A stretch of 64,000 nt of DNA from contig NC_089856.1 in the NCBI RefSeq assembly GCF_036373705.1, positions 8,178,501-8,242,500 on the forward strand, written 5' to 3'. Position 1 is the stretch's first letter. Every line of letters begins with the position of its first letter. The DNA comes from Amia ocellicauda (lineage: Eukaryota > Chordata > Actinopteri > Amiiformes > Amiidae). Shown piece by piece: positions 4,329 through 46,929 of the stretch. A model generated the notes under the pieces. That model searched no databases. It was not told where the DNA came from and was given only the letters and a program-made list of their open reading frames with translations. The position numbers and the translations under genes were made by a program.

Positions 4329-4649
4329 ACATTTCAGGACTTTCCTACTAGCGGGTTCCCTTGGTTTTCTTTCCTTAGAGGAACATCTCCCTTTGTCAGA
4401 GCTCCCTGCCCCCCTGGTTCCTAGTTTAAATGATTCTCAATTTCACTGCACATACACTCTCCCAATGCATTAGCCCCCCTTCTGTTTAGATGTAGAATGT
4501 GTGGTTTGTACAGGTCTCATCTATCCCAGAGGAACGACCAATGCTCTATAAACCTAAACCCCTCTTCCCTACACCAAGCTTTCAACCACGTGTTAAACTT
4601 TCTAATCTCTGCCTGTCTCCCTGGCCTGGCACATGGTACCGAAAGTATT

Positions 4650-19387: not shown

Positions 19388-19459
19388 GTACAGACGACTG
19401 TCCAACCATAGTTTGGAGGATGAAAGTGGGTGTAATTGTTTGGATCGTCCTCCTTGCAG
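19388..19459 (+). CDS. First coding exon, start of signal peptide
   Basis: The ATG at 19420-19422 opens MKVGVIVWIVLLA, a hydrophobic signal-peptide core, and the exon ends at a GTGAGA donor in phase 1. A long pyrimidine-rich tract ending TTTCTTTAG lies just before 19388, so this exon probably has its own acceptor. If so, an untranslated first exon and the promoter lie further upstream, possibly beyond the retroelement at 16-19 kb. Confidence 0.75.
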
Positions 19460-22400
19460 GTGAGAGAGTCAGAAGATGCTGACACTCTAGCGCAGATGCA
19501 ACAATGGTTTACATGAGACTGCCTTTATGCAAATATCCTTTGCCTCTTCCTATGTAAATTCAGTAACTTCAAAATAATATTATTATTCTACAAAAGAGGA
19601 AATTACAATCTTTTTTCATTTTTTTTCCTTTTCTCCTGTTTGACAGCCTTTCTGATTTTCACCGCACTGCCAGAGACCTCAGCCACCAGGTAAAAACTCC
19701 AATCCCCTGCTATTTCCGTCGACCCACGCCCCCCTCCATGCTAGTTCATTAATTGCTTTCACTATGCAATATTCTAATGAAACAGTAAGATAGGAAGTAT
19801 TTTATGATTTATATTAGCATTGCAAGTAGCTTTACATATCGGTAAATGCATTTTCAATGGCTGCTATTCATACTACATACAAGGCATATGATGTATAGTA
19901 TCTGTCTGGTGTGGCAATCCCAAGTAGAGAAATTGGACATCAAAATGTAGATCAAAATGTACAATTTAAACCACACCCAGACACCCACAAGCATATACAC
20001 ACCAACACATACTCTTGCATGGAATGCATGCATGCATGCACAAGAACATTAACTTACATACTTAATGCAATTCCACCCCATCCCCAACACTGATTCACAT
20101 TTGCTGCCTAGTGACACACAGCCAGGCATTATTTCTGCCCATCATTACTGCCATACATAAATGCTCAGATTCTCTCTCTCTCTCTCTCTCTCTTTGTTCA
20201 ATCAGCTCCAATTGTGGTGATGCAGTAGTTATTTTGGATGATACATTCCTAGAAGCCAGCAAAGAGTTCACAGAGGGGCGCAAAGAAGTGAGGCGGAAGA
20301 GAAATGTGTCTGAACCTGGTAGGTCACCAAACTAACTAGGTAATTTAATGGTCAACTAAACAAATCCTAATGAGAAGCTTTGTTAACCAAAGCATGATAG
20401 GTTTTATCTAAACCCTTACCCAATATCAATACAACCCAATATAATATCAATAATATTATTCTCAATAGTAAGTTCCCATTAGTTTATAAAAATCAGCTTC
20501 ATACAATGATTCTTTATGAGCCTGTTACAGTTATGTTATGTTGGATCCAATCTGAATTATCAACTTTTATTTTTGTTCCTCAATTTCTAAGGGTTCAAAA
20601 GTCTGTCCTCAACTACATTTAGAAACTCACTTTCTCTTAAACCTCTATAAACAGCCCTGAAATGTTCAGTTTTTGTTGTGTTTTATATTTAGGTTTTCTT
20701 GAGGTTGACACTAATACAGCTGCCCCTATGACCACAATGTATGAAGAAGGATCAGGTAGGTCAAGAACTTGATAATTCAATGGTCAACTGAAAAGCATTT
20801 ACAACAAAAAGTGTCTATCAAACACATGTTATTTAAATGTAAAGCCTGCCCAATAAGCCATTCATAGCTTTTTCTTACAATTTGGTAATAAAAAAACAAA
20901 AAAACAAAAACACTCTCTGCGTGATTGTCAGAGTGGCAAGACCAGAGGCTGGTGATATACTAATGGCCAGGATAATTAATGTACTAGGATCACTTTATTG
21001 CAATTATGAAAGGCAAAAACCCTATCCATTACATGTTGTGTTAACCTATGCTCTATTGAACTTGGCCAAACTCTAATTTTATTGATTCCGGCTTTATGGA
21101 TTCAGGTTATCTTGAAACTGACACCCCTACAACTCAACCTCCTACCTCAAACATAGCTCCCACTGTGACCTCAGGTAAGTTCTCAACAAAACCTGTTTCT
21201 TCCAAAAGTCAACTGAACAAAATGTTATTTTCACAGCTTAGCATTATTGGCTACTGAACATCTGCATTATATCCAATGATATCCAACAAGAAAAATATGT
21301 GGAACATTATATTTCAACAGACAAAGGCATACAATCTTACCTATGACGGCTACAACAAACATTTTATGGATTTTTGAATTTAGGCAATCTTGAGACTGAC
21401 ACCCCTCTATAGCTCAACCTGCTACCAAAACAATCTCTGAATACAACCAGCTTTGTTACACCTACCACAAGCACCACAAATACAGCTCCCACAGCAACCA
21501 CAATCACAGCTCCCACCACAGCATAACTATAGTTCCTAGTACAACTACCACTACACATACCACTACCAACACAACCACAGCTTTCTCTACAAGCACGACT
21601 TAAATCCACAAACCCACCACTACAAGAATTCTCGATAACTTCTTCAAACACATTTGAAAAACTCTAATTTGTGTTTTTTTCTTCTAGATAATGTTGCAGA
21701 AACCGTAACAGGTCCCACAAGCAATACACATACAGTTCTAGTGACAGACACCACCACCCCAACAACTACTGTAACTACAGCTCTAGCTACAACAAATATA
21801 AGAACTTACCCAATACTTATAACAGAAGGACAAGTTCTCAATGAGACTAACACAACGACAGCATCAACAACGCAAATATCCTCAGCTGCAACATCAATAG
21901 ATACATCTGCATCTCCAACAACATTGTAAGTAAAATATTATTTATTGAACTAAGGAGAGCTGAAGGAAAACCTGATATATATTTATGTGATAACATTTCA
22001 ATGCAAAAAAAAGAACAAGAAAGGACATGTGCATGCATGAAGGGTATAACTCGTGTACAATTCAAAAAGTTGGTTACGTGAGTAAGAAAAGAGAGTTGAC
22101 TGTGAAAATGTGACATCTTTGTATGCTCTAACTGATGACATCATTTTAGGCCGGTCATCGCTGTCCTGAGACTGGAGTTCAACAGCAATAACCCTGTTGC
22201 CAATGAAAGCCAGATCTATCAAGCCTTCACTGATTTCCTGGCTCCTTACACATCCCTGGGAATCTACCCAGTGAGCGTCACCAAAATCACCTCTGACAGT
22301 ACGTTCACCAGGAAATACAGTGAAAAGTGTCTCATTACATGTTTTAGATCCCTTTCAGTGAGATGGTATCTTTTTGGAAACTAATGTGTGTCTTCAAACA

Positions 22401-25400
22401 CTAAAAGTATTGCTACTGATCTAAAAGCTTACTTTAAAATTCTCGAAAATATTCCCCTACAGAACCCAAACCTACAGAATATGCCATCACTGTGTACATC
22501 CTCATAAATGAGCTGAATGTTCCAGAAGGCTCCAGTTTGAACAACCAGACATTCAGCGACATTCAAGACCCCATTGATGCCTTGGTGAGACTCTTACTGA
22601 AGAATACATACTGACACTCAATTTACTTGTCTAATCTGTAGAGGTCAATGGAAGATGTTGCACACATCAAGTCTTCCTTGGGAATTACCCATAGTATGTG
22701 TTCCTTCTCCTGAACACAAGTCAGGATCAAGCTAATGACATAACCTAATTACTGAGTGGCATGAGAATTGACAAAGATCATCGAGTCATTTCACATGATT
22801 TGTGTCTTATTATGTTTTCAGTTCCAAGAAATCCTTTCGGAGGTGCTAGGTAAAAAGCAGACCAAGTTCCCCCCTGCCACATTCAGGCAAGTCACTTCCT
22901 AATGACGTCTCCACTCCTTGACAACATCTCACCACAATACCAACTCCTGCAATTCCTTCAAAGTAAACAAACATAAGCTTGGGGAAATCCTGTGCAAGTG
23001 AATTGACTCTGTCCCTCTTCCTCTTCTCTCCCTCTGATTCCACAGCCACGACAACAATGCGGTCCAGGCTGAAGTCGTGTACCATTTCCAGGAAGCCGAC
23101 ATCCAGAGCCTGAGTGCTTTACTGACTGTGGTCCTGAACATCACAGGACCAGACCAAGACATAACAGTCATTCTGAGCATCAATGGTAGGTTCAAAGTCT
23201 TCTCCTGATTCAAATTATTGGGCTCTTTAGAGATTGTCTTAGTGATAGGGCAATTCACTGAATGATTGTATCGTCAGATTTATTGTCTTGTTCATACATC
23301 CATGAAGATTAAGCTGGTCTTTAACTCTGGTCTGCTCAACGCTGAACCAAAAGTGGTGAAAATTAATTGACTGCACATGTCTCCTGATGAATTTAAGGTC
23401 AAACTGATACAACAACTGCAGCTCCAACTACAATGGCAGCTCCAACTACAGTGGTGGCTCCAGCTACAAGGTAAACCCTCACCTTGGCAATCATATTTGA
23501 GACAGAACCAATATTAAAATCCAATGTATTGACGTGACTCTGTGTGCTTCCTTGTCTTCACAATTGTAGTCCGGTCATCGCTGTCCTGAGACTGGAGTTC
23601 AACAGCAATAACCCTGCTGCCAATGAAAGCCAGATCTATCAAGCCTTCACTGATTTCCTGGCTCCTTACACATCCCTGGGAATCTACCCAGTGAGCGTCA
23701 CCAAAATCACCTCTGACAGTACGTTCACCAGGAAATAAAGTGAAAAGTGTCTCATTACATGTTTTAGATCCCTTTCAGTGAGATGGTATCTTTTTGGAAA
23801 CTAATGTGTGTCTTCAAACACTAAAAGTATTGCTACTGATCTAAAAGCTTACTTTAAAATTCTCGAAAATATTCCCCTACAGAACCCAAACCTACAGAAT
23901 ATGCCATCACTGTGTACATCCTCATAAATGAGCTGAATGTTCCAGAAGGCTCCAGTTTGAACAACCAGACATTCAGCGACATTCAAGACCCCATTGATGC
24001 CTTGGTGAGACTCTTACTGCAGAATACACACTGACACTCAATTTACTTGTCTAATCTGTAGAGGTCAATGGAAGATGTTGCACACATCAAGTCTTCCTTG
24101 GGAATTACCCATAGTATGTGTTCCTTCTCCTGAACACAAGTCAGGATCAAGCTAATGACATAACCTAATTACTGAGTGGCATGAGATTAACAAAGATCAT
24201 CGAGTCATTTCACATGATTTGTGTCTTATTATGTTTTCAGTTCCAAGAAATCCTTTCGGAGGTGCTAGGTAAAAAGCAGACCAAGTTCCCCCCTGCCACA
24301 TTCAGGCAAGTCACTTCCTTATGACGTCTCCACTCCTTGACAACATCTCACCACAATACCAACTCCTGCAATTCCTTCAAAGTAAACAAACATAAGCTTG
24401 GGGAAATCCTGTGCAAGTAAATTGACTCTGTCCCTCTTCCTCTTCTCTCCCTCTGATTCCACAGCCACGACAACAATGCGGTCCAGGCTGAAGTCGTGTA
24501 CCATTTCCAGGAAGCCGACATCCAGAGCCTGAGTGCTTTACTGACTGTGGTCCTGAACATCACAGGACCAGACCAAGACATAACAGCCATTCTGAGCATC
24601 AATGGTAGGTTCAAAGTCTTCTCCTGATTCAAATTATTGGGCTCTTTAGAGATTGTCTTAGTGATAGGGCAATTCACTGAATGATTGTATCGTCAGATTT
24701 ATTGTCTTGTTCATACATCCATGAAGATTAAGCTGGTCTTTAACTCTGGTCTGCTCAACGCTGAACCAAAAGTGGTGAAAATTAATTGACTGCACATGTC
24801 TCCTGATGAATTTAAGGTCAAACTGATACAACAACTGCAGCGCCAACTACAATGGTGGCTCCAGCTACAAGGTAAACCCTCACCTTGGCAATCATATTTG
24901 AGACAGAACCAATATTAAAATCCAATGTATTGACGTGACTCTGTGTGCTTCCTTGTCTTCACAATTGTAGTCCGGTCATCGCTGTCCTGAGACTGGAGTT
25001 CAACAGCAATAACCCTGTTGCCAATGAAAGCCAGATCTATCAAGCCTTCACTGATTTCCTGGCTCCTTACACATCCCTGGGAATCTACCCAGTGAGCGTC
25101 ACCAAAATCACCTCTGACAGTACGTTCACCAGGAAATACAGTGAAAAGTGTCTCATTACATGTTTTAGATCCCTTTCAGTGAGATGGTATCTTTTTGGAA
25201 ACTAATGTGTGTCTTCAAACACTAAAAGTATTGCTACTGATCTAAAAGCTTACTTTAAAATTCTCGAAAATATTCCCCTACAGAACCCAAACCTACAGAA
25301 TATGCCATCACTGTGTACATCCTCATAAATGAGCTGAATGTTCCAGAAGGCTCCAGTTTGAACAACCAGACATTCAGCGACATTCAAGACCCCATTGATG

Positions 25401-28400
25401 CCTTGGTGAGACTCTTACTGAAGAATACACACTGACACTCAATTTACTTGTCTAATCTGTAGAGGTCAATGGAAGATGTTGCACACATCAAGTCTTCCTT
25501 GGGAATTACCCATAGTATGTGTTCCTTCTCCTGAACACAAGTCAGGATCAAGCTAATGACATAACCTAATTACTGAGTGGCATGAGATTGACAAAGATCA
25601 TCGAGTCATTTCACATGATTTGTGTCTTATTATGTTTTCAGTTCCAAGAAATCCTTTCGGAGGTGCTAGGTAAAAAGCAGACCAAGTTCCCCCCTGCCAC
25701 ATTCAGGCAAGTCACTTCCTAATGACGTCTCCACTCCTTGACAACATCTCACCACAATACCAACTCCTGCAATTCCTTCAAAGTAAACAAACATAAGCTT
25801 GGGGAAATCCTGTGCAAGTGAATTGACTCTGTCCCTCTTCCTCTTCTCTCCCTCTGATTCCACAGCCACGACAACAATGCGGTCCAGGCTGAAGTCGTGT
25901 ACCATTTCCAGGAAGCCGACATCCAGAGCCTGAGTGCTTTACTGACTGTGGTCCTGAACATCACAGGACCAGACCAAGACATAACAGTCATTCTGAGCAT
26001 CAATGGTAGGTTCAAAGTCTTCTCCTGATTCAAATTATTGGGCTCTTTAGAGATTGTCTTAGTGATAGGGCAATTCACTGAATGATTGTATCGTCAGATT
26101 TATTGTCTTGTTCATACATCCATGAAGATTAAGCTGGTCTTTAACTCTGGTCTGCTCAACGCTGAACCAAAAGTGGTGAAAATTAATTGACTGCACATGT
26201 CTCCTGATGAATTTAAGGTCAAACTGATACAACAACTGCAGCTCCAACTACAATGGCAGCTCCAACTACAGTGGTGGCTCCAGCTACAAGGTAAACCCTC
26301 ACCTTGGCAATCATATTTAAGACAGAACCAATATTAAAATCCAATGTATTGACGTGACTCTGTGTGCTTCCTTGTCTTCACAATTGTAGTCCGGTCATCG
26401 CTGTCCTGAGACTGGAGTTCAACAGCAATAACCCTGTTGCCAATGAAAGCCAGATCTATCAAGCCTTCACTGATTTCCTGGCTCCTTACACATCCCTGGG
26501 AATCTACCCAGTGAGCGTCACCAAAATCACCTCTGACAGTACGTTCACCAGGAAATAAAGTGAAAAGTGTCTCATTACATGTTTTAGATCCCTTTCAGTG
26601 AGATGGTATCTTTTTGGAAACTAATGTGTGTCTTCAAACACTAAAAGTATTGCTACTGATCTAAAAGCTTACTTTAAAATTCTCGAAAATATTCCCCTAC
26701 AGAACCCAAACCTACAGAATATGCCATCACTGTGTACATCCTCATAAATGAGCTGAATGTTCCAGAAGGCTCCAGTTTGAACAACCAGACATTCAGCGAC
26801 ATTCAAGACCCCATTGATGCCTTGGTGAGACTCTTACTGCAGAATACACACTGACACTCAATTTACTTGTCTAATCTGTAGAGGTCAATGGAAGATGTTG
26901 CACACATCAAGTCTTCCTTGGGAATTACCCATAGTATGTGTTCCTTCTCCTGAACACAAGTCAGGATCAAGCTAATGACATAACCTAATTACTGAGTGGC
27001 ATGAGATTAACAAAGATCATCGAGTCATTTCACATGATTTGTGTCTTATTATGTTTTCAGTTCCAAGAAATCCTTTCGGAGGTGCTAGGTAAAAAGCAGA
27101 CCAAGTTCCCCCCTGCCACATTCAGGCAAGTCACTTCCTAATGACGTCTCCACTCCTTGACAACATCTCACCACAATACCAACTCCTGCAATTCCTTCAA
27201 AGTAAACAAACATAAGCTTGGGGAAATCCTGTGCAAGTGAATTGACTCTGTCCCTCTTCCTCTTCTCTCCCTCTGATTCCACAGCCACGACAACAATGCG
27301 GTCCAGGCTGAAGTCGTGTACCATTTCCAGGAAGCCGACATCCAGAGCCTGAGTGCTTTACTGACTGTGGTCCTGAACATCACAGGACCAGACCAAGACA
27401 TAACAGTCATTCTGAGCATCAATGGTAGGTTCAAAGTCTTCTCCTGATCCAAATTATTGGGCTCTTTAGAGATTGTCTTAGTGATAGGGCAATTCACTGA
27501 ATGATTGTATCGTCAGATTTATTGTCTTGTTCATACATCCATGAAGATTAAGCTAGTCTTTAACTCTGGTCTGCTCAACGCTGAACCAAAAGTGGTGAAA
27601 ATTAATTGACTGCACATGTCTCCTGATGAATTTAAGGTCAAACTGATACAACAACTGCAGCTCCAACTACAATGGCAGCTCCAACTACAGTGGTGGCTCC
27701 AGCTACAAGGTAAACCCTCACCTTGGCAATCATATTTGAGACAGAACCAATATTAAAATCCAATGTATTGACGTGACTCTGTGTGCTTCCATGTCTTCTC
27801 AATTGTAGTCCGGTCATCGCTGTCCTGAGACTGGAGGTCAACATCAATAACCCTGCTGCCAATGAAAGCCAGATCTATCAAGCCTTCACTGATTTCCTGG
27901 CTCCTTACACATCCCTGGGAATCTACCCAGTGAGCGTCACCAAAATCACCTCCGACAGTACGTTCACCAGGAAATAAAGTGAAAAGTGTCTCATTACATG
28001 TTTTAGATCCCTTTCAGTGAGATGGTATCTTTTTGGAAACTAATGTGTGTCTTCAAACACTAAAAGTATTGCTACTGATCTAAAAGCTTACTTTAAAATT
28101 CTCGAAAATATTCCCCTACAGAACCCAAACCTACAGAATATGCCATCACTGTGTACATCCTCATAAATGAGCTGAATGTTCCAGAAGGCTCCAGTTTGAA
28201 CAACCAGACATTCAGCGACATTCAAGACCCCATTGATGCCTTGGTGAGACTCTTACTGCAGAATACACACTGACACTCAATTTACTTGTCTAATCTGTAG
28301 AGGTCAATGGAAGATGTTGCACACATCAAGTCTTCCTTGGGAATTACCCATAGTATGTGTTCCTTCTCCTGAACACAAGTCAGGATCAAGCTAATGACAT

Positions 28401-34400: not shown

Positions 34401-37400
34401 CAATGCGGTCCAGGCTGAAGTCGTGTACCATTTCCAGGAAGCCGACATCCAGAGCCTGAGTGCTTTACTGACTGTGGTCCTGAACATCACAGGACCAGAC
34501 CAAGACATAACAGCCATTCTGAGCATCAATGGTAGGTTCAAAGTCTTCTCCTGATTCAAATTATTGGGCTCTTTAGAGATTGTCTTAGTGATAGGGCAAT
34601 TCACTGAATGATTGTATCGTCAGATTTATTGTCTTGTTCATACATCCATGAAGATTAAGCTGGTCTTTAACTCTGGTCTGCTCAACGCTGAACCAAAAGT
34701 GGTGAAAATTAATTGACTGCACATGTCTCCTGATGAATTTAAGGTCAAACTGATACAACAACTGCAGCTCCAACTACAATGGCAGCTCCACCTACAATGG
34801 CAGCTACAACTACAGTGGTGGCTCCAGCTACAAGGTAAACCCTCACCTTGGCAATCATTTTTGAGACAGAACCAATATTAAAATCCAATGTATTGACGTG
34901 ACTCTGTGTGCTTCCTTGTCTTCACAATTGTAGTCCGGTCATCGCTGTCCTGAGACTGGAGTTCAACAGCAATAACCCTGCTGCCAATGAAAGCCAGATC
35001 TATCAAGCCTTCACTGATTTCCTGGCTCCTTACACATCCCTGGGAATCTACCCAGTGAGCGTCACCAAAATCACCTCTGACAGTACGTTCACCAGGAAAT
35101 ACAGTGAAAAGTGTCTCATTACATGTTTTAGATCCCTTTCAGTGAGCTGGTATCTTTTTGGAAACTAATGTGTGTCTTCAAACACTAAAAGTATTGCTAC
35201 TGATCTAAAAGCTTACTTTAAAATTCTCGAAAATATTCCCCTACAGAACCCAAACCTACCGAATATGCCATCACTGTGTACATCCTCATAAATGAGCTGA
35301 ATGTTCCAGAAGGCTCCAGTTTGAACAACCAGACATTCAGCGACATTCAAGACCCCATTGATGCCTTGGTGAGACTCTTACTGAAGAATACACACTGACA
35401 CTCAATTTACTTGTCTAATCTATAGAGGTCAATGGAAGATGTTGCACACATCAAGTCTTCCTTGGGAATTACCCATAGTATGTGTTCCTTCTCCTGAACA
35501 CAAGTCAGGATCAAGCTAATGACATAACCTAATTACTGAGTGGCATGAGATTAACAAAGATCATCGAGTCATTTCACATGATTTGTGTCTTATTATGTTT
35601 TCAGTTCCAAGAAATCCTTTCGGAGGTGCTAGGTAAAAAGCAGACCAAGTTCCCCCCTGCCACATTCAGGCAAGTCACTTCCTAATGACGTCTCCACTCC
35701 TTGACAACATCTCACCACAATACCAACTCCTGCATTTCCTTCAAAGTAAACAAACATAAGTTTGGGGAAATCCTGTGCAAGTGAAATGACTCTGTCCCTC
35801 TTCCTCTTCTCTCCCTCTGATTCCACAGCCACGACAACAATGCGGTCCAGGCTGAAGTCGTGTACCATTTCCAGGAAGCCGACATCCAGAGCCTGAGTGC
35901 TTTACTGACTGTGGTCCTGAACATCACAGGACCAGACCAAGACATAACAGCCATTCTGAGCATCAATGGTAGGTTCAAAGTCTTCTCCTGATTCAAATTA
36001 TTGGGCTCTTTAGAGATTGTCTTAGTGATAGGGCAATTCACTGAATGATTGTATCGTCAGATTTATTGTCTTGTTCATACATCCATGAAGATTAAGCTGG
36101 TCTTTAACTCTGGTCTGCTCAACGCTGAACCAAAAGTGGTGAAAATTAATTGACTGCACATGTCTCCTGATGAATTTAAGGTCAAACTGATACAACAACT
36201 GCAACTCCAACTACAATGGCAGCTCCACCTACAATGGTGGCTCCAGCTACAAGGTAAACCCTCACCTTGGCAAACATATTTGAGACAGAACCAATATTAA
36301 AATCCAATGTATTGACATGACTCTGTGTGCTTCCTTGTCTTCACAATTGTAGTCCGGTCATCGCTGTCCTGAGACTGGAGTTCAACAGCAATAACCCTGC
36401 TGCCAATGAAAGCCAGATCTATCAAGCCTTCACTGATTTCCTGGCTCCTTACACATCCCTGGGAATCTACCCAGTGAGCGTCACCAAAATCACCTCTGAC
36501 AGTACGTTCACCAGGAAATACAGTGAAAAGTGTCTCATTACATGTTTTAGATCCCTTTCAGTGAGATGGTATCTTTTTGGAAACTAATGTGTGTCTTCAA
36601 ACACTAAAAGTATTGCTACTGATCTAAAAGCTTACTTTAAAACTCTCGAAAATATTCCCCTACAGAACCCAAACCTACAGAATATGCCATCACTGTGTAC
36701 ATCCTCATAAATGAGCTGAATGTTCCAGAAGGCTCCAGTTTGAACAACCAGACATTCAGCGACATTCAAGACCCCATTGATGCCTTGGTGAGACTCTTAC
36801 TGAAGAATACACACTGACACTCAATTTACTTGTCTAATCTGTAGAGGTCAATGGAAGATGTTGCACACATCAAGTCTTCCTTGGGAATTACCCATAGTAT
36901 GTGTTCCTTCTCCTGAACACAAGTCAGGATCAAGCTAATGACATAACCTAATTACTGAGTGGCATGAGATTAACAAAGATCATCGAGTCATTTCACAGGA
37001 TTTGTGTCTTATTATGTTTTCAGTTCCAAGAAATCCTTTCGGAGGTGCTAGGTAAAAAGCAGACCAAGTTCCCCCCTGCCACATTCAGGCAAGTCACTTC
37101 CTAATGACGTCTCCACTCCTTGACAACATCTCACCACAATACCAACTCCTGCAATTCCTTCAAAGTAAACAAACATAAGCTTGGGGAAATCCTGTGCAAG
37201 TGAATTGACTCTGTCCCTCTTCCTCATCTCTCCCTCTGATTCCACAGCCACGACAACAATGCGGTCCAGGCTGAAGTCGTGTACCATTTCCAGGAAGCCG
37301 ACATCCAGAGCCTGAGTGCTTTACTGACTGTGGTCCTGAACATCACAGGACCAGACCAAGACATAAAAGCCATTCTGAGCATCAATGGTAGGTTCAAAGT

Positions 37401-40400
37401 CTTCTCCTGATTCAAATTATTGGGCTCTTTAGAGATTGTCTTAGTGATAGGGCAATTCACTGAATGATTGTATCGTCAGATTTATTGTCTTGTTCATACA
37501 TCCATGAAGATTAAGCTGGTCTTTAACTCTGGTCTGCTCAACGCTGAACCAAAAGTGGTGAAAATTAATTGACTGCACATGTCTCCTGATGAATTTAAGG
37601 TCAAACTGATACAACAACTGCAGCTCCAACTACAATGGCAGCTCCAACTACAGTGGTGGCTCCAGCTACAAGGTAAACCCTCACCTTGGCAATCATATTT
37701 GAGACAGAACCAATATTAAAATCCAATGTATTGACGTGACTCTGTGTGCTTCCTTGTCTTCACAATTGTAGTCCGGTCATCGCTGTCCTGAGACTGGAGT
37801 TCAACAGCAATAACCCTGCTGCCAATGAAAGCCAGATCTATCAAGCCTTCACTGATTTCCTGGCTCCTTACACATCCCTGGGAGTCTACCCAGTGAGCGT
37901 CACCAAAATCACCTCTGACAGTACGTTCACCAGGAAATACAGTGAAAAGTGTCTCATTACATGTTTTAGATCCCTTTCAGTGAGCTGGTATCTTTTTGGA
38001 AACTAATGTGTGTCTTCAAACACTAAAAGTATTGCTACTGATCTAATAGCTTACTTTAAAATTCTCGAAAATATTCCCCTACAGAACCCAAACCTACCGA
38101 ATATGCCATCACTGTGTACATCCTCATAAATGAGCTGAATGTTCCAGAAGGCTCCAGTTTGAACAACCAGACATTCAGCGACATTCAAGACCCCATTGAT
38201 GCCTTGGTGAGACTCTTACTGAAGAATACACACTGACACTCAATTTACTTGTCTAATCTGTAGAGGTCAATGGAAGATGTTGCACACATCAAGTCTTCCT
38301 TGGGAATTACCCATAGTATGTGTTCCTTCTCCTGAACACAAGTCAGGATCAAGCTAATGACATAACCTAATTACTGAGTGGCATGAGATTGACAAAGATC
38401 ATCGAGTCATTTCACATGATTTGTGTCTAATTATGTTTTCAGTTCCAAGAAATCCTTTCGGAGGTGCTAGGTAAAAAGCAGACCAAGTTCCCCCCTGCCA
38501 CATTCAGGCAAGTCACTTCCTAATGACGTCTCCACTCCTTGACAACATCTCACCACAATACCAACTCCTGCAATTCCTTCAAAGTAAACAAACATAAGTT
38601 TGGGGAAATCCTGTGCAAGTGAAATGACTCTGTCCCTCTTCCTCTTCTCTCCCTCTGATTCCACAGCCACGACAACAATGCGGTCCAGGCTGAAGTCGTG
38701 TACCATTTCCAGGAAGACGACATCCAGAGCCTGAGTGCTTTACTCACTGTGGTCCTGAACATCACAGGACCAGACCAAGACATAACAGCCATTCTGAGCA
38801 TCAATGGTAGGTTCAAAGTCTTCTCCTGATTCAAATTATTGGGCTCTTTAGAGATTGTCTTAGTGATAGGGCAATTCACTGAATGATTGTATCGTCAGAT
38901 TTATTGTCTTGTTCATACATCCATGAAGATTAAGCTGGTCTTTAACTCTGGTCTGCTCAACGCTGAACCAAAAGTGGTGAAAATTAATTGACTGCACATG
39001 TCTCCTGATGAATTTAAGGTCAAACTGATACAACAACTGCAGCTCCAACTACAATGGCAGCTCCACCTACAATGGCAGCTACAACTACAGTGGTGGCTCC
39101 AGCTACAAGGTAAACCCTCACCTTGGCAATCATTTTTGAGACAGAACCAATATTAAAATCCAATGTATTGACGTGACTCTGTGTGCTTCCTTGTCTTCAC
39201 AATTGTAGTCCGGTCATCGCTGTCCTGAGACTGGAGTTCAACAGCAATAACCCTGCTGCCAATGAAAGCCAGATCTATCAAGCCTTCACTGATTTCCTGG
39301 CTCCTTACACATCCCTGGGAATCTACCCAGTGAGCGTCACCAAAATCACCTCTGACAGTACGTTCACCAGGAAATACAGTGAAAAGTGTCTCATTACATG
39401 TTTTAGATCCCTTTCAGTGAGCTGGTATCTTTTTGGAAACTAATGTGTGTCTTCAAACACTAAAAGTATTGCTACTGATCTAAAAGCTTACTTTAAAATT
39501 CTCGAAAATATTCCCCTACAGAACCCAAACCTACCGAATATGCCATCACTGTGTACATCCTCATAAATGAGCTGAATGTTCCAGAAGGCTCCAGTTTGAA
39601 CAACCAGACATTCAGCGACATTCAAGACCCCATTGATGCCTTGGTGAGACTCTTACTGAAGAATACACACTGACACTCAATTTACTTGTCTAATCTATAG
39701 AGGTCAATGGAAGATGTTGCACACATCAAGTCTTCCTTGGGAATTACCCATAGTATGTGTTCCTTCTCCTGAACACAAGTCAGGATCAAGCTAATGACAT
39801 AACCTAATTACTGAGTGGCATGAGATTAACAAAGATCATCGAGTCATTTCACATGATTTGTGTCTTATTATGTTTTCAGTTCCAAGAAATCCTTTCGGAG
39901 GTGCTAGGTAAAAAGCAGACCAAGTTCCCCCCTGCCACATTCAGGCAAGTCACTTCCTAATGACGTCTCCACTCCTTGACAACATCTCACCACAATACCA
40001 ACTCCTGCATTTCCTTCAAAGTAAACAAACATAAGTTTGGGGAAATCCTGTGCAAGTGAAATGACTCTGTCCCTCTTCCTCTTCTCTCCCTCTGATTCCA
40101 CAGCCACGACAACAATGCGGTCCAGGCTGAAGTCGTGTACCATTTCCAGGAAGCCGACATCCAGAGCCTGAGTGCTTTACTGACTGTGGTCCTGAACATC
40201 ACAGGACCAGACCAAGACATAACAGCCATTCTGAGCATCAATGGTAGGTTCAAAGTCTTCTCCTGATTCAAATTATTGGGCTCTTTAGAGATTGTCTTAG
40301 TGATAGGGCAATTCACTGAATGATTGTATCGTCAGATTTATTGTCTTGTTCATACATCCATGAAGATTAAGCTGGTCTTTAACTCTGGTCTGCTCAACGC

Positions 40401-43400
40401 TGAACCAAAAGTGGTGAAAATTAATTGACTGCACATGTCTCCTGATGAATTTAAGGTCAAACTGATACAACAACTGCAACTCCAACTACAATGGCAGCTC
40501 CACCTACAATGGTGGCTCCAGCTACAAGGTAAACCCTCACCTTGGCAAACATATTTGAGACAGAACCAATATTAAAATCCAATGTATTGACATGACTCTG
40601 TGTGCTTCCTTGTCTTCACAATTGTAGTCCGGTCATCGCTGTCCTGAGACTGGAGTTCAACAGCAATAACCCTGCTGCCAATGAAAGCCAGATCTATCAA
40701 GCCTTCACTGATTTCCTGGCTCCTTACACATCCCTGGGAGTCTACCCAGTGAGCGTCACCAAAATCACCTCTGACAGTACGTTCACCAGGAAATACAGTG
40801 AAAAGTGTCTCATTACATGTTTTAGATCCCTTTCAGTGAGCTGGTATCTTTTTGGAAACTAATGTGTGTCTTCAAACACTAAAAGTATTGCTACTGATCT
40901 AAAAGCTTACTTTAAAATTCTCGAAAATATTCCCCTACAGAACCCAAACCTACCGAATATGCCATCACTGTGTACATCCTCATAAATGAGCTGAATGTTC
41001 CAGAAGGCTCCAGTTTGAACAACCAGACATTCAGCGACATTCAAGACCCCATTGATGCCTTGGTGAGACTCTTACTGAAGAATACACACTGACACTCAAT
41101 TTACTTGTCTAATCTGTAGAGGTCAATGGAAGATGTTGCACACATCAAGTCTTCCTTGGGAATTACCCATAGTATGTGTTCCTTCTCCTGAACACAAGTC
41201 AGGATCAAGCTAATGACATAACCTAATTACTGAGTGGCATGAGATTGACAAAGATCATCGAGTCATTTCACATGATTTGTGTCTAATTATGTTTTCAGTT
41301 CCAAGAAATCCTTTCGGAGGTGCTAGGTAAAAAGCAGACCAAGTTCCCCCCTGCCACATTCAGGCAAGTCACTTCCTAATGACGTCTCCACTCCTTGACA
41401 ACATCTCACCACAATACCAACTCCTGCAATTCCTTCAAAGTAAACAAACATAAGTTTGGGGAAATCCTGTGCAAGTGAAATGACTCTGTCCCTCTTCCTC
41501 TTCTCTCCCTCTGATTCCACAGCCACGACAACAATGCGGTCCAGGCTGAAGTCGTGTACCATTTCCAGGAAGACGACATCCAGAGCCTGAGTGCTTTACT
41601 CACTGTGGTCCTGAACATCACAGGACCAGACCAAGACATAACAGCCATTCTGAGCATCAATGGTAGGTTCAAAGTCTTCTCCTGATTCAAATTATTGGGC
41701 TCTTTAGAGATTGTCTTAGTGATAGGGCAATTCACTGAATGATTGTATCGTCAGATTTATTGTCTTGTTCATACATCCATGAAGATTAAGCTGGTCTTTA
41801 ACTCTGGTCTGCTCAACGCTGAACCAAAAGTGGTGAAAATTAATTGACTGCACATGTCTCCTGATGAATTTAAGGTCAAACTGATACAACAACTGCAGCT
41901 CCAACTACAATGGCAGCTCCACCCACAATGGCAGCTACAACTACAGTGGTGTCTCCAGCTGCAACTCCAGTTCCAGTTCAAACTACAACTGCGGCTCCAA
42001 CTTCAAGGTAAAGTACACTTCACCAATAATATTTGAGACAGCTCTATGTGTGATTCCCTATCTTCACAGTTTTTTTAAATTCTAATGTTTTGATGCCTCA
42101 CTATGTGGTTCCTTTTGCTGACAACTTGTTTCTCTCACTCTTTTTCTCTTTGCCTCCATGCAGGATTGGAGAAGTTATTGTTACAATCCGCCTTGAGTTC
42201 AACATTTCCAAGGAAGTCCCTAGCAAGGAGGAAGTGATGAAGATTGCGAATGATCTGTACCTGTACCGCTTTAGGACTATGAGGGCATTGTCCCTGGATT
42301 ACACTGAAATCAACTATGAAAGTATGCATCCCTCCTTGTCTCTGTCCCTCTCCATTGTAAATGTTGATCTGCTGGATCCTATCTACAGCATCAGTCCTTT
42401 TTTACAGTATATTTACAGCAATGAGGGGAAGAATAAACAAGAACAAGAGTGTATTTGTATTTTTAATATAGCATTGGAGTGTTAAAGAGATGAAAATTCT
42501 AGGTTTAGGAATTGAAGGAATGAAATGGCATTCTTCTCATAAATTTCTTACCATACCAAAAATGGCAAACCTTTGTCTGTGTCCCTCTCTCACATCTATC
42601 TCTTTCCTCCATCTCCCCATCTCTCTCTCTGTTTCTCAGAAATATCTGACAACGCCTTTGCCATTATCATGCTCTTCCACACGAGTAATGTTATCATCGA
42701 TGACTCAATACAGTTCAACAACGAGACATACACAGAGATCGATGAGGCCGTGAATGACCTGGTGAGATACTGAGAGAACAGTACATACAGAAACATCTCC
42801 CAGATAAAGTACTGAGGCTAAGAACAATTCTAAATTTTGACCTAACCAGCAAACTGCAGATTACAAGCCTGTTATCATAAAGTGTTTTATTTATTTATTT
42901 GTTTATGAGCAGGTGCTTCCTTACCCTGTGTGACTTTCAGCTGTCACAATTTGCTTATTGCTATTGAGGGCTTCCCCTTTTTCCATTTAAAATCAATTTC
43001 CTTTCCACTACTGATCTGGTCAAGTCTTTGCACCAAAGGACCAATTGTCCAGATTGTAACACTAAGAGCTACTTATACTCCAGTAAAAAGAAGTAAACCA
43101 GCTTATACTTTGGGTCACAATGAGCATTGATAAGGTGATGGAAATGTATAATTTCTGTAACTGTTACTACCTTCTGTTACAAGACCTTACAGAATAACAC
43201 TCATTGTTCACACTGTAATACCAACAGTGACAGTACTCCAGCAATCAGTTATGATGATCCCTTAAATGAACTTGTGCTTCAGCAAAATTGTGGTAAAAAG
43301 CATTTGCTATGCTCTTCGAAATACATTTAAGATATGTTTATCCCCATTTCATCAATGAGAGACTTTCTTCTGAGTTTGATTGGATTGGATTAGCAGACCT

Positions 43401-45454
43401 GTAATTAGATGGTCTCATCTTGGTGAATAGGGGTGAACACAATCTTCACAATATTTAATGAACATCGCAAATGCATTTTACCCCAAATCTTGCACTAATG
43501 TTGATAACGATATTGAAATTATTTGAGTGTGTTCATTATCTCAATTAATTCTGTTTTTTTATTGTTGTTTCTTCCAGCTCAAAACCATGCTTTCAAACTC
43601 ACAGGCCCCACCTTTTCATCTTCCTCTGAATTCCTTTAAGTGAGTCTTCCTGAGTTAACCATGCCCTAGCATTTCCTCAACAAACTAAGATCATGTGCCT
43701 TTTATTTTCCTTTCTTCCAATCACCACATCTTTACTGAAAAAATAAAACTGAGACTCTCAGTCAGTCTTCAGTGTAGACCAAATTAAAACTTTGACTTCT
43801 CCTCAAGCTACAATTTAATCTAATTAAACCTCCATCTCCATCTCTCTCTGTAACCTAATCCCAAATTTCACCATAAAAAAACTAAATATATATATTAAAT
43901 ATGATGCAATTGTTTGAAGCTTATATTTGACGTAATAGCAATATTGCCCTGTTGTTGTAAATTTAAAATATATGGAATATGTTTTAAATATGTTTTAGTC
44001 TGTAATTCATATATATATATTATATATTTTTAAATATATTGTAGAAATGTACCTCACCTTATATTTTCAACCTATTATATATTTGTTCCATATGGGTTTA
44101 TTATTGGTAGAGGTTTATAATTTGTTATTTGCAAAGGTAGGTCAATTAATTATGCGTTAATTATGCAAGGGTAGGTTCTGCAATCAATTTCCCTCCGTCT
44201 CTGGAAGGTAGAAAACCTGAGGGTAAAACAGTCAAGTCCAGATCCACAACTTCAAAGACTTCAGTAACGCAATGGTTCCAATTGGACTGTTTGTTCATAT
44301 AAACTGACTCTCTCTCTCTTTCTCACTAATTCCATAGTGTCACATCAAACATAATCTATGCTAGTGTGGTGTACAAGTTCAAAGATGGAGATATTGCCAA
44401 CCCCAGCACATTCCTGTCTGCGCTCTTGGAAGTCAGCGGTGAGTTTAGCAGCTACAGCAGCTCTGATGCCACCAGGGTTTTAAAATGAATCCATTCTCAG
44501 TATTTGCTCAAATTAAAAATCTTTCACATATTTGTGGTCATAATCACACACATGGTTTATGCAGTTAGATGTCAACTACATTGTATCTACACTAAACAGG
44601 AGCTGCACTGTAATTACTCAGTACAATGCTATGCAATGCATTACCGGGTGATTTCTAACCACAGTTACCACAGTGGGGAATAATCACAGCGATGTATGAC
44701 AGTGTTTGTGCTTGTGGCTTAATCACCGCCATGCTTTTAGACAAAGCCATGTGGTACATTTCAGTTTATCAGTAATGTAAACGACCATGTGAGAATGTGC
44801 ACTGAACTTGTGCTGTCTCTCCATTCACAGACAAAGGTAGCCTGACCCTAATCTCCACCACACCACCTTCACCTGTCCTGCTGCCCGTAGTGACACCCAC
44901 CCCTGGCAGCAGAGATCCTGGCATCTGGGGTGTCGCCATTGCTGTCCCCATCGGGGTTGCCCTCATCCTGCTACCTTGCTGGATCGCGCTCTGTGTAAGT
45001 GTCTCAGGAGCAGTTTGGCTGTGTGTAGTCTCTCTCTCTCTCCCTGTATGAGTGCTGTGTCATTGAGTAGTGTCTCTTTCTCACTCTTTCTTTCACTCTT
45101 TCCCTGTTGTGTCAACAGTGTCTTTCTCTCTCTCTCTCTGTATTACAGTCCAGTGTCAGGAGCAGTGTCTTTCTCTCTGTAACACAGTCCGGTGTCAGGA
45201 GCAGTGTCTTTCTCTCTGTAACACAGTCCGGTGTCAGGAGCAGTGTCTCTCTCTCTGTAACACAATCCGGTGTCAGGAGCAGTGTCTCTCTCTCATTCTT
45301 TATCTGTATTGGAGTGCTGTGTCAGTGAGCAATGCCTCTCTCTCTTTCCGTATTACAGTGTGTGCTGTGTGGCTGCTGTGCGGGACTCAGGAGGAGATGG
45401 CAGCGAAGGCGATCCTATCCAGTGCAATACACTACCAGAAACGGCCTGTTCTAA
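19420..45454 (+). CDS. Giant modular mucin-like transmembrane protein, 14 tandem 183-residue modules plus one diverged module
   Basis: The reading joins 82 coding exons: six N-terminal exons, 70 exons in 14 five-exon units, four exons of a diverged module, a transmembrane exon and a tail exon. The exons sum to 9,045 nt, exactly 3,015 codons with the stop, and every junction keeps frame. Predicted parts are a signal peptide (about residues 1-25), RRKR at 57-60, a Thr/Ser/Pro-rich stretch to about 188, modules from 189, a membrane helix at about 2960-2983, and a 31-residue tail. Modules lack cysteine, carry sequons NES, NQT and NIT, and are joined by Thr/Ala/Pro linkers suited to O-glycosylation. 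The layout fits a cell-surface or shed mucin. SEA-like folding is my inference from alternating strands and helices; no GSVVV-type self-cleavage motif is visible. The gene is unrecognised by name. N-terminal and array exons are well supported; the true 5' and 3' UTR exons are unknown. Confidence 0.85.
19647..19689 (+). CDS. Coding exon 2, end of signal peptide
   Basis: The acceptor TTTGACAG and donor GTAAAA bound 43 nt reading AAFLIFTALPETSAT in frame with exon 1. Together they give a classical signal peptide with likely cleavage near the Ser-Ala-Thr at residues 25-27. The exon ends in phase 2. Confidence 0.78.
20206..20318 (+). CDS. Coding exon 3, propeptide with furin-type site
   Basis: The exon follows a (TC)n tract and AATCAG and ends at GTAGGT. 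It encodes SSNCGDAVVILDDTF and then the basic run EVRRKRNVSEP. R-R-K-R at residues 57-60 fits the proprotein-convertase consensus, so the first ~35 residues after the signal peptide may be a removed propeptide. Cys31 is one of very few cysteines outside the membrane region. Confidence 0.8.
20693..20755 (+). CDS. Coding exon 4, short Thr-rich exon
   Basis: The 63-nt exon reads GFLEVDTNTAAPMTTMYEEG and has phase-1 borders on both sides. It begins with the same G-x-L-E-x-D-T block as the next exon and the decayed exon at 21384, so these three came from exon duplication. Confidence 0.75.
21106..21174 (+). CDS. Coding exon 5, short Thr/Pro-rich exon
   Basis: The exon is 69 nt between TTCAG and GTAAGT. 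It reads GYLETDTPTTQPPTSNIAP and a few more Thr/Ser codons. It has symmetric phase-1 borders and is a paralogue of exon 4. The content suits an O-glycosylated stalk. Confidence 0.75.
21384..21604 (+). pseudogene. Decayed duplicate exon, probably skipped
   Basis: An acceptor-like AATTTAG is followed by GNLETDTP in the frame of exons 4 and 5, then TAG at 21410-21412. The sequence beyond is ACC/ACA-rich in shifted frames and ends without a convincing donor. Phase-1 borders mean leaving it out joins exon 5 to exon 7 in frame, so the gene can tolerate its loss. Confidence 0.6.
21688..21925 (+). CDS. Coding exon 7, Thr/Ser-rich mucin-like stretch
   Basis: The 238-nt exon runs from CTTCTAG to GTAAGT and encodes about 79 residues dominated by Thr, with Ser, Ala and Pro, for example TDTTTPTTTVTTALATTN. 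It ends in phase 2, matching the border used by every later module. This is the N-terminal O-glycosylation-type region leading into module 1. Confidence 0.8.
22150..23470 (+). CDS. Module 1 (exons A-E)
   Basis: Exons are 22150-22298, 22463-22584, 22822-22886, 23046-23185 and 23398-23470. Exon A starts VIAVLRLEFN, exon B encodes TEYAITVYILINELNVPEG, exon C FQEILSEVLGKKQTKFPP, exon D AVQAEVVYHF and then LLTVVLNITGPD, and exon E the Thr/Ala/Pro linker. The first residue is Leu (TT|G) rather than the Ser used in later modules, because the preceding exon differs. The intron between B and C carries the single extra base of the array. Confidence 0.88.
23570..24871 (+). CDS. Module 2 (exons A-E), shortest linker
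   Basis: Exons are 23570-23718, 23883-24004, 24241-24305, 24465-24604 and 24817-24871. Exon E is 55 nt instead of 73, a loss of six codons from the Thr/Ala/Pro linker that leaves the frame intact. Confidence 0.88.
24971..26290 (+). CDS. Module 3 (exons A-E)
   Basis: Exons are 24971-25119, 25284-25405, 25642-25706, 25866-26005 and 26218-26290. It has Val instead of Ala in the NPVANES segment, shared with modules 1 and 4, which marks an older subgroup at the left end of the array. Confidence 0.88.
26390..27709 (+). CDS. Module 4 (exons A-E)
   Basis: Exons are 26390-26538, 26703-26824, 27061-27125, 27285-27424 and 27637-27709. It combines the Val variant of exon A with the CTGCAGAAT intron variant seen in modules 2, 5 and 6, a mosaic expected from exchange between units. 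Confidence 0.88.
27809..29128 (+). CDS. Module 5 (exons A-E), variant exon A
   Basis: Exons are 27809-27957, 28122-28243, 28480-28544, 28704-28843 and 29056-29128. Exon A reads LEVNINNP where other modules read LEFNSNNP, the most diverged exon A among the 14. The acceptor region also carries private changes (CCATGTCTTCTCAATTG). Confidence 0.88.
29228..30553 (+). CDS. Module 6 (exons A-E)
   Basis: Exons are 29228-29376, 29541-29662, 29899-29963, 30123-30262 and 30475-30553. It has Phe in LGFYPVSV where others have Ile or Val. The linker exon is 79 nt (+6). Confidence 0.88.
30653..31978 (+). CDS. Module 7 (exons A-E)
   Basis: Exons are 30653-30801, 30966-31087, 31324-31388, 31548-31687 and 31900-31978. 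Exon B begins TACCC instead of AACCC, changing the junction codon from Lys to Ile. The linker is 79 nt (+6), with a pattern close to that of module 6. Confidence 0.88.
32078..33397 (+). CDS. Module 8 (exons A-E)
   Basis: Exons are 32078-32226, 32391-32512, 32749-32813, 32973-33112 and 33325-33397. From the D-flanking intron onward it carries the right-hand variants (AAGTTTGG, GAAATGACT) found in modules 9, 10 and 12-14, so it is the junction between the two subgroups. Confidence 0.88.
33497..34834 (+). CDS. Module 9 (exons A-E), long linker
   Basis: Exons are 33497-33645, 33810-33931, 34168-34232, 34392-34531 and 34744-34834. Exon C has Thr instead of Ser in the EILTEVLG segment. The linker exon is 91 nt (+18) and has the same make-up as that of module 12. 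Confidence 0.88.
34934..36253 (+). CDS. Module 10 (exons A-E)
   Basis: Exons are 34934-35082, 35247-35368, 35605-35669, 35829-35968 and 36181-36253. It shares private variants with module 13: AATCTATAG in the B-C intron, CTGCAACTCC in the linker, and GGCAAACATA after it. The two look like copies from one recent duplication. Confidence 0.88.
36353..37672 (+). CDS. Module 11 (exons A-E)
   Basis: Exons are 36353-36501, 36666-36787, 37024-37088, 37248-37387 and 37600-37672. It has the left-hand intron variants (GTGAGATGG, AAGCTTGG, GAATTGACT) although right-hand units surround it, and Lys in DQDIKAIL where others have Thr. It looks like a unit moved in by exchange. Confidence 0.88.
37772..39109 (+). 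CDS. Module 12 (exons A-E), long linker
   Basis: Exons are 37772-37920, 38085-38206, 38443-38507, 38667-38806 and 39019-39109. Variants LGVYPVSV, QEDDIQS, GTCTAATTATG and ATTGACAAAG are shared only with module 14. The linker exon is 91 nt (+18). Confidence 0.88.
39209..40528 (+). CDS. Module 13 (exons A-E)
   Basis: Exons are 39209-39357, 39522-39643, 39880-39944, 40104-40243 and 40456-40528. At every variant position I compared it matches module 10, including both linkers around it. Confidence 0.88.
40628..42007 (+). CDS. Module 14 (exons A-E), longest linker
   Basis: Exons are 40628-40776, 40941-41062, 41299-41363, 41523-41662 and 41875-42007. The body matches module 12 apart from CTAAAAGCTT versus CTAATAGCTT in an intron. 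Its linker exon is 133 nt (+60), extended by further Ala/Pro/Thr codons, and joins the repeated region to the diverged module. The intron after it no longer resembles the repeat. Confidence 0.86.
42164..44438 (+). CDS. Module 15, diverged membrane-proximal module (four exons)
   Basis: Exons are 42164-42321, 42640-42761, 43578-43639 and 44338-44438. They keep the order, phases and nearly the sizes of repeat exons A-D (158, 122, 62 and 101 nt). Sequence matches are clear but distant: IGEVIVTIRLEFN against VIAVLRLEFN, NAFAIIMLFHTSNV against EYAITVYILINELNV, and NIIYASVVYKF against NNAVQAEVVYHF. Introns are unrelated to the repeat, and the third donor is a normal GTGAGT. It is probably the ancestral single module from which the array arose, kept apart from later homogenisation. 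Confidence 0.83.
44831..44994 (+). CDS. Transmembrane exon
   Basis: A Pro/Thr-rich juxtamembrane segment (TTPPSPVLLPVVTPTPGS) leads into a ~24-residue hydrophobic helix starting IWGVAIAVPIGVALILLPCW. The acceptor is ATTCACAG and the donor TGT|GTAAGT, phase 0. Helix and downstream basic run together predict type I topology, with all modules outside the cell. Confidence 0.85.
45153..45308 (+). repeat. 39-bp minisatellite, four copies, in the last coding intron
   Basis: GTGTCAGGAGCAGTGTC recurs at 45153, 45192, 45231 and 45270, giving a 39-bp period. Each copy includes a TCT-rich tract followed by ACACAGTCC or a close variant, so the array duplicates acceptor-like sites just before the true last acceptor at 45358. 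Confidence 0.85.
45359..45454 (+). CDS. Last coding exon, cytoplasmic tail
   Basis: In frame the exon reads CVLCGCCAGLRRRWQRRRSY and 11 further residues ending NGLF, then TAA at 45452-45454. The Cys cluster beside the membrane suits palmitoylation, and the Arg runs are a strong stop-transfer signal, which supports this frame over the alternatives. A good donor (CAG|GTAAGA) follows at 45459, so an untranslated exon probably lies downstream. The stop sits within a few bases of that junction, so nonsense-mediated decay is not expected. Confidence 0.78.
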   Translation, partial: CVLCGCCAGLRRRWQRRRSYPVQYTTRNGLF

Positions 45455-45833: not shown

Positions 45834-45930
45834 CAGGTGTGTTTTATACAGGTAACGAGCTGAGATTAGGAGCACTCTCTTAAAGGGCGTGCTCCTAATC
45901 TCAGCTCGCTACCTGTATAAAAGACACCTG
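45834..45930. repeat. 42-bp-arm hairpin upstream of the Tc1 transposase
   Basis: Arms 45834-45875 and 45889-45930 are reverse complements with two mismatches, and a 13-nt loop separates them. The core is GAGCTGAGATTAGGAGCAC. The hairpin ends seven bases before the transposase ATG. The same structure is present in copy 2. Confidence 0.9.
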
Positions 45931-45936
45931 TCCACC

Positions 45937-46929
45937 ATGGCCAAGTCCAAGGATGTCAGGGACAAGATTGTAGACCTACACAAGGCTGGAATGGGCTACA
46001 AGACCATCGCCAAGCAGCTTGGTGAGAAGGTGACAACAGTTGGTGCGATTATTCGCAAATGGAAGAAACACAAAATAACTGTCAGTCTCCCTCGGTCTGG
46101 GGCTCCATGCAAGATCTCACCTCGTGGAGTTTCAATGATCATGAGAACGGTGAGGAATCAGCCCAGAACTACACGGGAGGATCTTGTTAATGATCTCAAG
46201 GCAGCTGGGAGCATAGTCACCAAGAAAACAATTGGTAACACACTATGCAGTGAAGGACTGAAATCCTGCAGCACCCGCAAGGTCCCCCTGCTCAAGAAAG
46301 CACATGTACAGGCCCATCTGAAGTTTGCCAACATCTGAATGATTCAGAGGAGAACTGGGTGAAAGTGTTGTGGTCAGATGAGACCAAAATCGAGCTCTTT
46401 GGCATCAACTCAACTCGCCGTGTTTGGAGGAGGAGGAATGACCCCAAGAACACCATTCCCACCGTCAAACATGGAGGTGGAAACATTATGCATTGGGGGT
46501 GTTTTTCTGCTAAGGGGACAGGACAACTGCACCGCATCAAAGGGACGATGGACGGGGCCATGTACCGTCAAATCTTGGGTGAGAACCTCCTTCCCTCAGC
46601 CAGGGCATTGAAAATGGGTCGTGGATGGGTATTCCAGCAAGACAATGACCCAAAACACACAGCCAAGGCAACAAAGGAGTGGCTCAAGAAGAAGCACATT
46701 AAGGTCCTGGAGTGGCCTAGCCAGTCTCCAGACCTTAATCCCATAGAAAATCTGTGGAGGGAGCTGAAGGTTCGAGTTGCCAAACGTCAGCCTCGAAACC
46801 TTAATGACTTGGAGAGGATCTGCAAAGTGGGACAAAATCCCTCCTGAGATGTGTGCAAACCTGGTGGCCAACTACAAGAAACGTCTGACCTCTGTGATTG
46901 CCAACAAGGGTTTTGCCACCAAGTACTAA
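45937..46929 (+). pseudogene. Tc1-like transposase, frameshifted, copy 1
   Basis: The N-terminal helix-turn-helix part ([20 protein letters not shown]) is open to 46338. The catalytic part resumes in another frame with [31 protein letters not shown] and [11 protein letters not shown], the DD34E residues of a cut-and-paste transposase. A short loss near 46.33 kb shifts frame after KFAN, and another near 46.83 kb changes the C-terminus. The start also lacks about 13 residues present in copy 2. It is unlikely to be active. Confidence 0.88.

Follow-up and report, generated by a model that had tools for sequence, protein, structure and literature searches.

The window, by which we mean the whole 64,000-nucleotide stretch of DNA analysed (C7:8178501-8242500), carries a gene that probably encodes a single-pass type I membrane glycoprotein of mucin-like character, with a chain of fifteen modules as its predicted ectodomain. 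Exons 2-4 of the module (E2-E4) very probably encode a diverged domain derived from the SEA domain. The gene has paralogues in the same genome, and the family looks like a separately built counterpart of human MUC16.

The five-exon units of the gene were found by fuzzy matching, and the gene was then spliced by hand from the DNA at predicted splice sites. The rebuilt reading frame (19420-45454) bears out an earlier sequence-only reading, which had claimed 82 exons and 3,014 codons in a single frame: it starts with ATG at 19420, ends with TAA at 45452-45454, and has no stop inside the 82 exons. That reading had also placed the modules between a signal peptide and a transmembrane (TM) helix, and hydrophobic 19-mers indeed occur only at residues 1-27 and 2957-2994. 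The order of the protein is signal peptide, pro-region, Thr-rich stretch, 14 modules, a diverged module (module D), TM segment, and a Cys-rich basic tail. Its splice sites and its expression, like the glycosylation, furin cleavage, and bodily location of the protein, are predictions from the DNA. The parts of the gene are as follows.

19420-19459 and 19647-19689, + strand: exons N1 and N2, start codon and signal peptide (frame, splice sites, hydrophobic 19-mers at residues 1-27)
20206-20318, + strand: exon N3, pro-region with Cys31 and a furin-type site, RRKR, at residues 57-60 (translation)
20693-20755, 21106-21174, and 21688-21925, + strand: exons N4, N5, and N6, Thr-rich N-terminal region (30% Thr in residues 61-189)
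22150-22298, 22463-22584, 22822-22886, 23046-23185, and 23398-23470, + strand: the five exons of module 1 (gene rebuild)
22463-23185, + strand: exons 2-4 of module 1, an example of the SEA-type part, phases 1-0-2-1 (rebuild and SEA-gene comparison; exons 2-3 profile-tested)
23570-24871, + strand: module 2 (gene rebuild)
24971-26290, + strand: module 3 (gene rebuild)
26390-27709, + strand: module 4 (gene rebuild)
27809-29128, + strand: module 5 (gene rebuild)
29228-30553, + strand: module 6 (gene rebuild)
30653-31978, + strand: module 7 (gene rebuild)
32078-33397, + strand: module 8 (gene rebuild)
33497-34834, + strand: module 9 (gene rebuild)
34934-36253, + strand: module 10 (gene rebuild, unit comparison)
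36353-37672, + strand: module 11 (gene rebuild)
37772-39109, + strand: module 12 (gene rebuild)
39209-40528, + strand: module 13 (gene rebuild, unit comparison)
40628-42007, + strand: module 14, with a long last linker (gene rebuild)
42164-42321, 42640-42761, 43578-43639, and 44338-44438, + strand: exons D1, D2, D3, and D4 of module D, diverged and membrane-proximal (rebuild, comparison)
44831-44994, + strand: exon D5, Pro-rich stalk and most of the TM helix (rebuild; matched at nine places in the genome)
45359-45454, + strand: exon D6, end of the TM helix, cysteine-rich juxtamembrane stretch, basic tail, and stop at 45452-45454 (rebuild)

Exons N4 and N5 resemble each other by eye. The stretch 21380-21690 begins like exon N5 (NLETDTPL, then a stop) and continues in Thr/Pro-rich frames with stops; it is apparently a decayed Thr-rich exon. 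The last intron holds a 39-bp tandem repeat of 4.3 copies (45129-45294). Tc1-like transposase copies were recognized by eye at 45856-46847, about 400 bases beyond the stop codon, and at 58387-59491, and further mobile-element pieces lie at 16166-16756 (-), 3621-4433 (-), 54070-54819 (-), and 62106-62411 (+) (RNase H domain, endonuclease, reverse transcriptase, and DDE endonuclease).

The claim of 14 near-identical 183-residue modules plus one diverged module stood as to the counts and the identity (96.8-100% between units over the 158-aa core) and failed as to uniform length, because only 8 of the 14 modules have 183 residues and the others have 177, 185, 185, 189, 189, and 202. Several further features ascribed to the modules were found in all 14: five exons, no cysteine, and three N-glycosylation sequons. 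The linkers, which had been called O-glycan-type, are mucin-like (19-44 aa; 36% Thr, 23% Ala, 14% Pro). In the whole protein there are 7 cysteines (Cys31 and six in the TM segment and tail) and 48 sequons (three in each of the 14 modules, 3 in module D, and 3 in the N-terminus). Exons E1-E5 measure 149, 122, 65, 140, and 55-133 nt with phases 2-1-0-2-1-2 in every unit, so that the unit is symmetric (phase 2 in, phase 2 out) and whole modules can be gained or lost in frame. Units 1-13 start 1,401-1,437 bp apart, and 1,536 bp separate the start of unit 14 from that of the diverged copy. Module D is only 24% identical to the array modules, yet it has the same phases and the 122-nt exon 2. As D repeats these features, and 50 further modules of the genome have the same exon lengths, the structure of the array goes beyond chance.

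The sequence supports the earlier description of a surface mucin, the predicted product being a type I glycoprotein of the cell surface whose linkers are mucin-like and whose layout resembles that of the MUC16 SEA arrays. It has the features by which membrane-bound mucins are recognized: a signal peptide, a PTS region, a SEA or similar domain, a single TM segment, and a cytoplasmic tail. The label “mucin” nevertheless needs a qualifier. The PTS part is short, Thr-rich sequence being confined to the short linkers and residues 61-189, and the module core makes up most of the protein.

The module had been described as one that could not be assigned. In our analysis a diverged SEA domain is the most likely identity of exons 2-4, because their splice phases and places match those of a SEA gene and because a profile of exons 2 and 3 scores the SEA N-halves of MUC1 and MUC16 above shuffled sequences; the basis for SEA descent is thus sequence and splice phases for E2-E3, and place and splice phases for E4. 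A SEA search of the genome gave two places, one gene on contig C3 and one on contig C1. The C3 gene (C3:29847366-29848174), which we take to be a TMPRSS-like protease, has SEA exons that measure 131, 68, and 194 nt and show phases 1-0-2-1, and its spliced protein matches Pfam SEA (E = 6.1e-23). E2, E3, and E4, of 122, 65, and 140 nt, agree with it in 4/4 phases (1-0-2-1) at matching places, the splice sites being predicted, and in the C1 gene the one readable intron, again with predicted splice sites, is a phase-0 intron at the same place (1/1). An aromatic residue occupies the 11th position before the phase-0 intron in each of the three: STEFLSMATKIANV (C3), SPEYRSLENTFLEL (C1), and NQTFSDIQDPIDAL (module), each written up to the intron. 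In both the C3 gene and the module, the second intron of the SEA part interrupts the loop inferred to precede strand 3, and the phase-1 intron at the end falls within an N/G pair (SIVVN/G in the C3 gene, LSIN/G in the module).

The E2-E3 profile was built from nine family sequences and tested on seven SEA N-halves (strand 1-helix 1-strand 2) with 2,000 shuffles. It scored 11.0 bits against the MUC1 N-half and 13.2 bits against that of mouse MUC16 (0/2,000 shuffles each), and it gave p = 0.005 with human MUC16. The other four of the seven N-halves were not significant singly (2e7v “HAT,” 0.06; C1 gene, 0.05; C3 gene, 0.15; MUC17, 0.51). Summed over the seven N-halves, the score was reached in 0/2,000 shuffles, whereas the control with five SEA C-halves gave a summed p of 0.18; an earlier six-sequence profile had given a summed p of 0.001 on the N-halves. 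In single-pair tests of six queries against seven targets at three gap settings, the strongest pair was E2-E3 of the window with MUC1 (p = 0.0005, 0/2,000, and 0.0015), the only pair still significant, at two of these settings, once 42 tests are allowed for. E2-E3 of module D gave p = 0.008-0.032 in the same pair tests.

Direct searches did not detect a SEA domain. Pfam PF01390 at E <= 10 found no SEA match in the window module, E2-E4, module D, or the N-terminus, nor in any of eight aligned family members (0/8) or three further family sequences (0/3), and the positive controls scored 8.3e-29 (MUC16), 2.5e-13 (MUC17), and 6.1e-23 (C3 gene). Three PDB profile searches, one of them untargeted with E2-E4, returned no SEA chain. 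The attempt to name the module by plain search (Pfam, NCBIfam, PDB profiles) was rejected, as it gave no SEA and sub-threshold matches only. One such match came from the module of another family member (the ninth gene, described below), put together with guessed joins, which hit Pfam Reprolysin_4 at E = 0.0084 (16.2 bits; cut-off 22). A profile of E4 showed no visible likeness to five SEA C-halves (strand 3-helix 2-strand 4; summed p = 0.91), and two-row hhalign comparisons of the module with SEA were weak, one giving P 0.11 and another doing no better than shuffled columns, 24% of which were as good. A five-sequence SEA HMM gave p = 0.026 for the module in the expected register and p = 0.025 for module D in another register. 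We base the SEA reading on the deeper family profiles instead. The SEA domain is defined by its fold and not by its sequence, so we read the Pfam miss as a limit of detection and the E4 result as not decisive. The motif G-S-[VIAL] was absent from the region of the strand 2-3 loop (residues 101-125) in all 64 array modules of the genome, and by eye module D of the window contains no G-S-[VIA] cleavage motif.

Exon 1, of about 50 residues, lies outside this assignment and has the phases of a last SEA exon (2 in, 1 out). It could be one strand-helix-strand half left over from a SEA domain that has lost its first two exons, which would make the module a SEA-and-a-half, but we consider this rather unlikely. 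Window E1 resembled the C-halves of MUC1 and human MUC16 (p = 0.0075-0.0375) and not that of mouse MUC16 (p = 0.52-0.87); D1 did not match the C-halves and gave p = 0.014-0.034 with the MUC1 N-half; the E1 family profile gave p = 0.09 against both SEA halves; and E1 against E4 gave p = 0.11. If the module were a SEA-and-a-half, neighbouring modules could complete each other's sheets and form a rod by strand exchange without disulphides. Mucin stalks would then be built in a new way, and the amplification would have taken place separately in most of the eight paralogues.

We searched the genome to which the window belongs (988 Mb, 385 contigs) for paralogues. Its size and the Tc1-like reading frames make the earlier attribution to a fish plausible. 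The counts are lower bounds, since the array search scored 150 of 208 candidates, the E1 search 68 of 68, and the TM-exon search 11 of 11. At least nine genes have the common TM exon, and eight of these carry arrays of 4-14 modules (64 modules in total).

C7:8115-8124k: array of 7 units
C7:8161-8166k: array of 4 units
C7:8178501-8242500, + strand: array of 14 units (window gene)
C18:18266-18274k, minus strand: array of 7 units
C18:18343-18354k, minus strand: array of 8 units
C18:18465-18475k, minus strand: array of 7 units
C18:18541-18560k, minus strand: array of 13 units
C18:18729-18744k, minus strand: array of 4 units

Of the 65 rows that the E1 search returned, 64 are the modules and the other, a weak one (E = 0.07), falls on a D1 exon. 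A lone partial module at C18:18428k (C18:18424001-18434000; end of E1, E2, E3, and E4, with Thr-rich flanks) is a small gene or a relic and is excluded from the 64. The TM-exon search at E <= 0.001 gave nine matches: every one of the eight arrays is followed by one, and the remaining match lies at C18:17184k. The last belongs to a ninth gene (C18:17181001-17208000), in which a 292-codon Thr-rich stretch between stops, a PTS part longer than that of the window protein, is followed by one D-like module, split into four exon pieces, and then by the TM exon and a tail resembling those of other members. The E1 search found no array at this locus, and the gene may resemble the ancestral form from which the arrays grew. 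D-type exons lie downstream of the array in 8/8 cases, but only the three C7 genes yielded the full D1-D5 set. These three genes also retain the furin-type R-X-K-R (RRKR in the window gene, RWKR and RWKR in the others).

No cysteine or stop occurs in E1-E4 of the 64 spliced array modules. E1 is 149 nt in 62 modules and 152 nt in two, and E2, E3, and E4 are 122, 65, and 140 nt in 64/64. Protein identity is 93-100% within arrays, and the means between arrays are 49-98%. In a midpoint-rooted FastTree of the array modules, 7 of the 8 arrays form single groups (support 0.74-1.0, with none given for one), and the C7:8161k group takes in units of C7:8115k. As modules are alike within arrays and different between them, we conclude that most of the genes built or homogenised their arrays independently. 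The donor of the third exon is GC (AG/GCAAGT) in all 14 window units (introns 22887-23045 and 13 equivalents) and in 25/25 modules of the three C7 genes, and it is GT in 39/39 C18 modules, which points to one change carried along by amplification. Within the window, units 10 (34934-36352) and 13 (39209-40627) show zero differences over all aligned bases, introns included, which suggests a recent duplication or conversion unless it is an effect of the assembly. In the 78 pairs among units 1-13, identity is 98.9% for introns and 98.8% for exons, and the pooled pN/pS over the 14 cores is 0.48, the pairs not being independent. The similarity of the units and this ratio are consistent with recent amplification or conversion under mild purifying selection.

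That introns are as similar as exons, and that the Thr-rich stretch at 21380-21690 has lost its frame, would also fit a decaying or silent locus in which tandem DNA was amplified under little selection and no protein is expressed. We regard this as highly improbable in view of the absence of stops from the 82 exons and from E1-E4 of the 64 modules, the pN/pS of 0.48 between units, and the constancy of E1-E4 exon lengths across arrays with protein differences of up to 51%. It is very unlikely that the gene is a direct orthologue of MUC16 with a common tandem array in place of an independent one. The two have in common a five-exon repeat, a linker of about 25 residues, and a short tail, and the exon borders of the MUC16 repeat (exons of 42, 23, 58, 12, and 21 aa) fall at matching places of the SEA domain. 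However, the pattern of likeness within and difference between arrays indicates that these originated, or were rebuilt, once most of the genes had separated, the MUC16 Cys pair is absent here, and exon 1 of the module is not known to have a MUC16 counterpart.

The negative searches bear on a further alternative, namely that E1-E4 together (158 aa) make up some other domain that shares no descent with SEA, and that its resemblance to SEA exon phases and to MUC1 and MUC16 is coincidental. The lack of a Pfam or PDB sequence match, the failed hhalign test, the four of seven N-halves that are not significant singly, and the lack of detectable C-half likeness in E4 argue in its favour. We nevertheless consider it quite unlikely: a SEA gene from this genome has all four splice phases at corresponding places, and the E2-E3 profile reaches significance with SEA N-halves but not with C-halves. 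SEA descent of E2-E4 remains the reading that we prefer.

The protein would form an extended bead-on-string stalk in the epithelial glycocalyx, and a furin-type cut would remove the pro-region. N-glycans on the beads and O-glycans on the Thr/Ala/Pro linkers would make it a hydrated, protease-resistant rod, and because the beads have no cysteine, no disulphides would be needed, which fits an exposed rod. The MUC1 SEA domain cleaves itself at G-S; SEA-type beads that lack this motif should therefore stay uncut, with no shedding at these domains. Unequal crossing-over and conversion between the symmetric five-exon units of about 1.4 kb could change the number of modules and leave the frame intact. 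The reach of the protein above the membrane could therefore change quickly, apparently by separate events in most of the paralogues.

A SEA search that depends on Pfam would miss this family, since its SEA domain has drifted beyond the Pfam model, and splice phases help to recover it. Only Muc13 and a MUC1-like gene were identified among the membrane mucins of Fugu, and many others were reported missing in fish (PMC1552070). Among the matches listed in the open-licence literature there was no fish family of this kind. The nine or more paralogues, eight with arrays of 4-14 modules and one with a single module, constitute a natural experiment on the origin and length change of repeat-built mucins such as MUC16, and the family supplies arrays made without cysteines or the G-S motif.

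Gpr126/ADGRG6, whose SEA domain was recognized through structure comparison (PMC6954182), offers a precedent for a SEA domain missed by sequence, although it is a single domain in an adhesion GPCR and not an array. The layout of MUC1, MUC13, and I-Muc (PTS, one SEA, TM) is like that of the ninth gene (C18:17.18 Mb), with its Thr-rich stretch, one module, TM segment, and tail. Chicken Muc13 has one PTS repeat per exon (PMC1552070), and sea bream I-Muc has a SEA domain next to the TM segment and no clear mammalian orthologue (PMC3680472). The family differs from these three in having no Pfam SEA match, no G-S-V-V-V in the array modules, and (by eye) no EGF domain. The C3 gene of the same genome is unlike the family in being Pfam-positive with a single SEA domain, and its counterpart of E2-E3 is not similar in sequence (p = 0.15).

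MUC16 and related mucins carry tandem SEA domains. MUC16 resembles the window gene in its tandem SEA-type domains, its Ser/Thr/Pro-type linkers, its N- and O-glycosylation (predicted here), its TM segment, and its short tail, which the tail of the window protein may resemble. The MUC16 repeat has five exons, as do 14/14 window modules, and covers 156 aa and about 1,900 bp, with SEA as the first 131 aa (PMC3431878); the window module is longer, mostly 183 aa, and has an extra exon 1 of about 50 residues. The same paper gives the MUC16 repeats a Cys pair (Cys59/Cys79) and Met24 and reports the MUC1-like cleavage motif as confirmed in just one MUC16 SEA domain (PMC3431878); the family lacks the Cys pair, with Cys in 0/64 modules (E1-E4). 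The N-terminal region is a short Thr-rich stretch in the window gene, compared with 12,068 aa in MUC16 (PMC3431878), and here there are at least nine genes. As E2-E4 are most likely SEA, the resemblance to MUC16 probably extends beyond layout to the domain itself.
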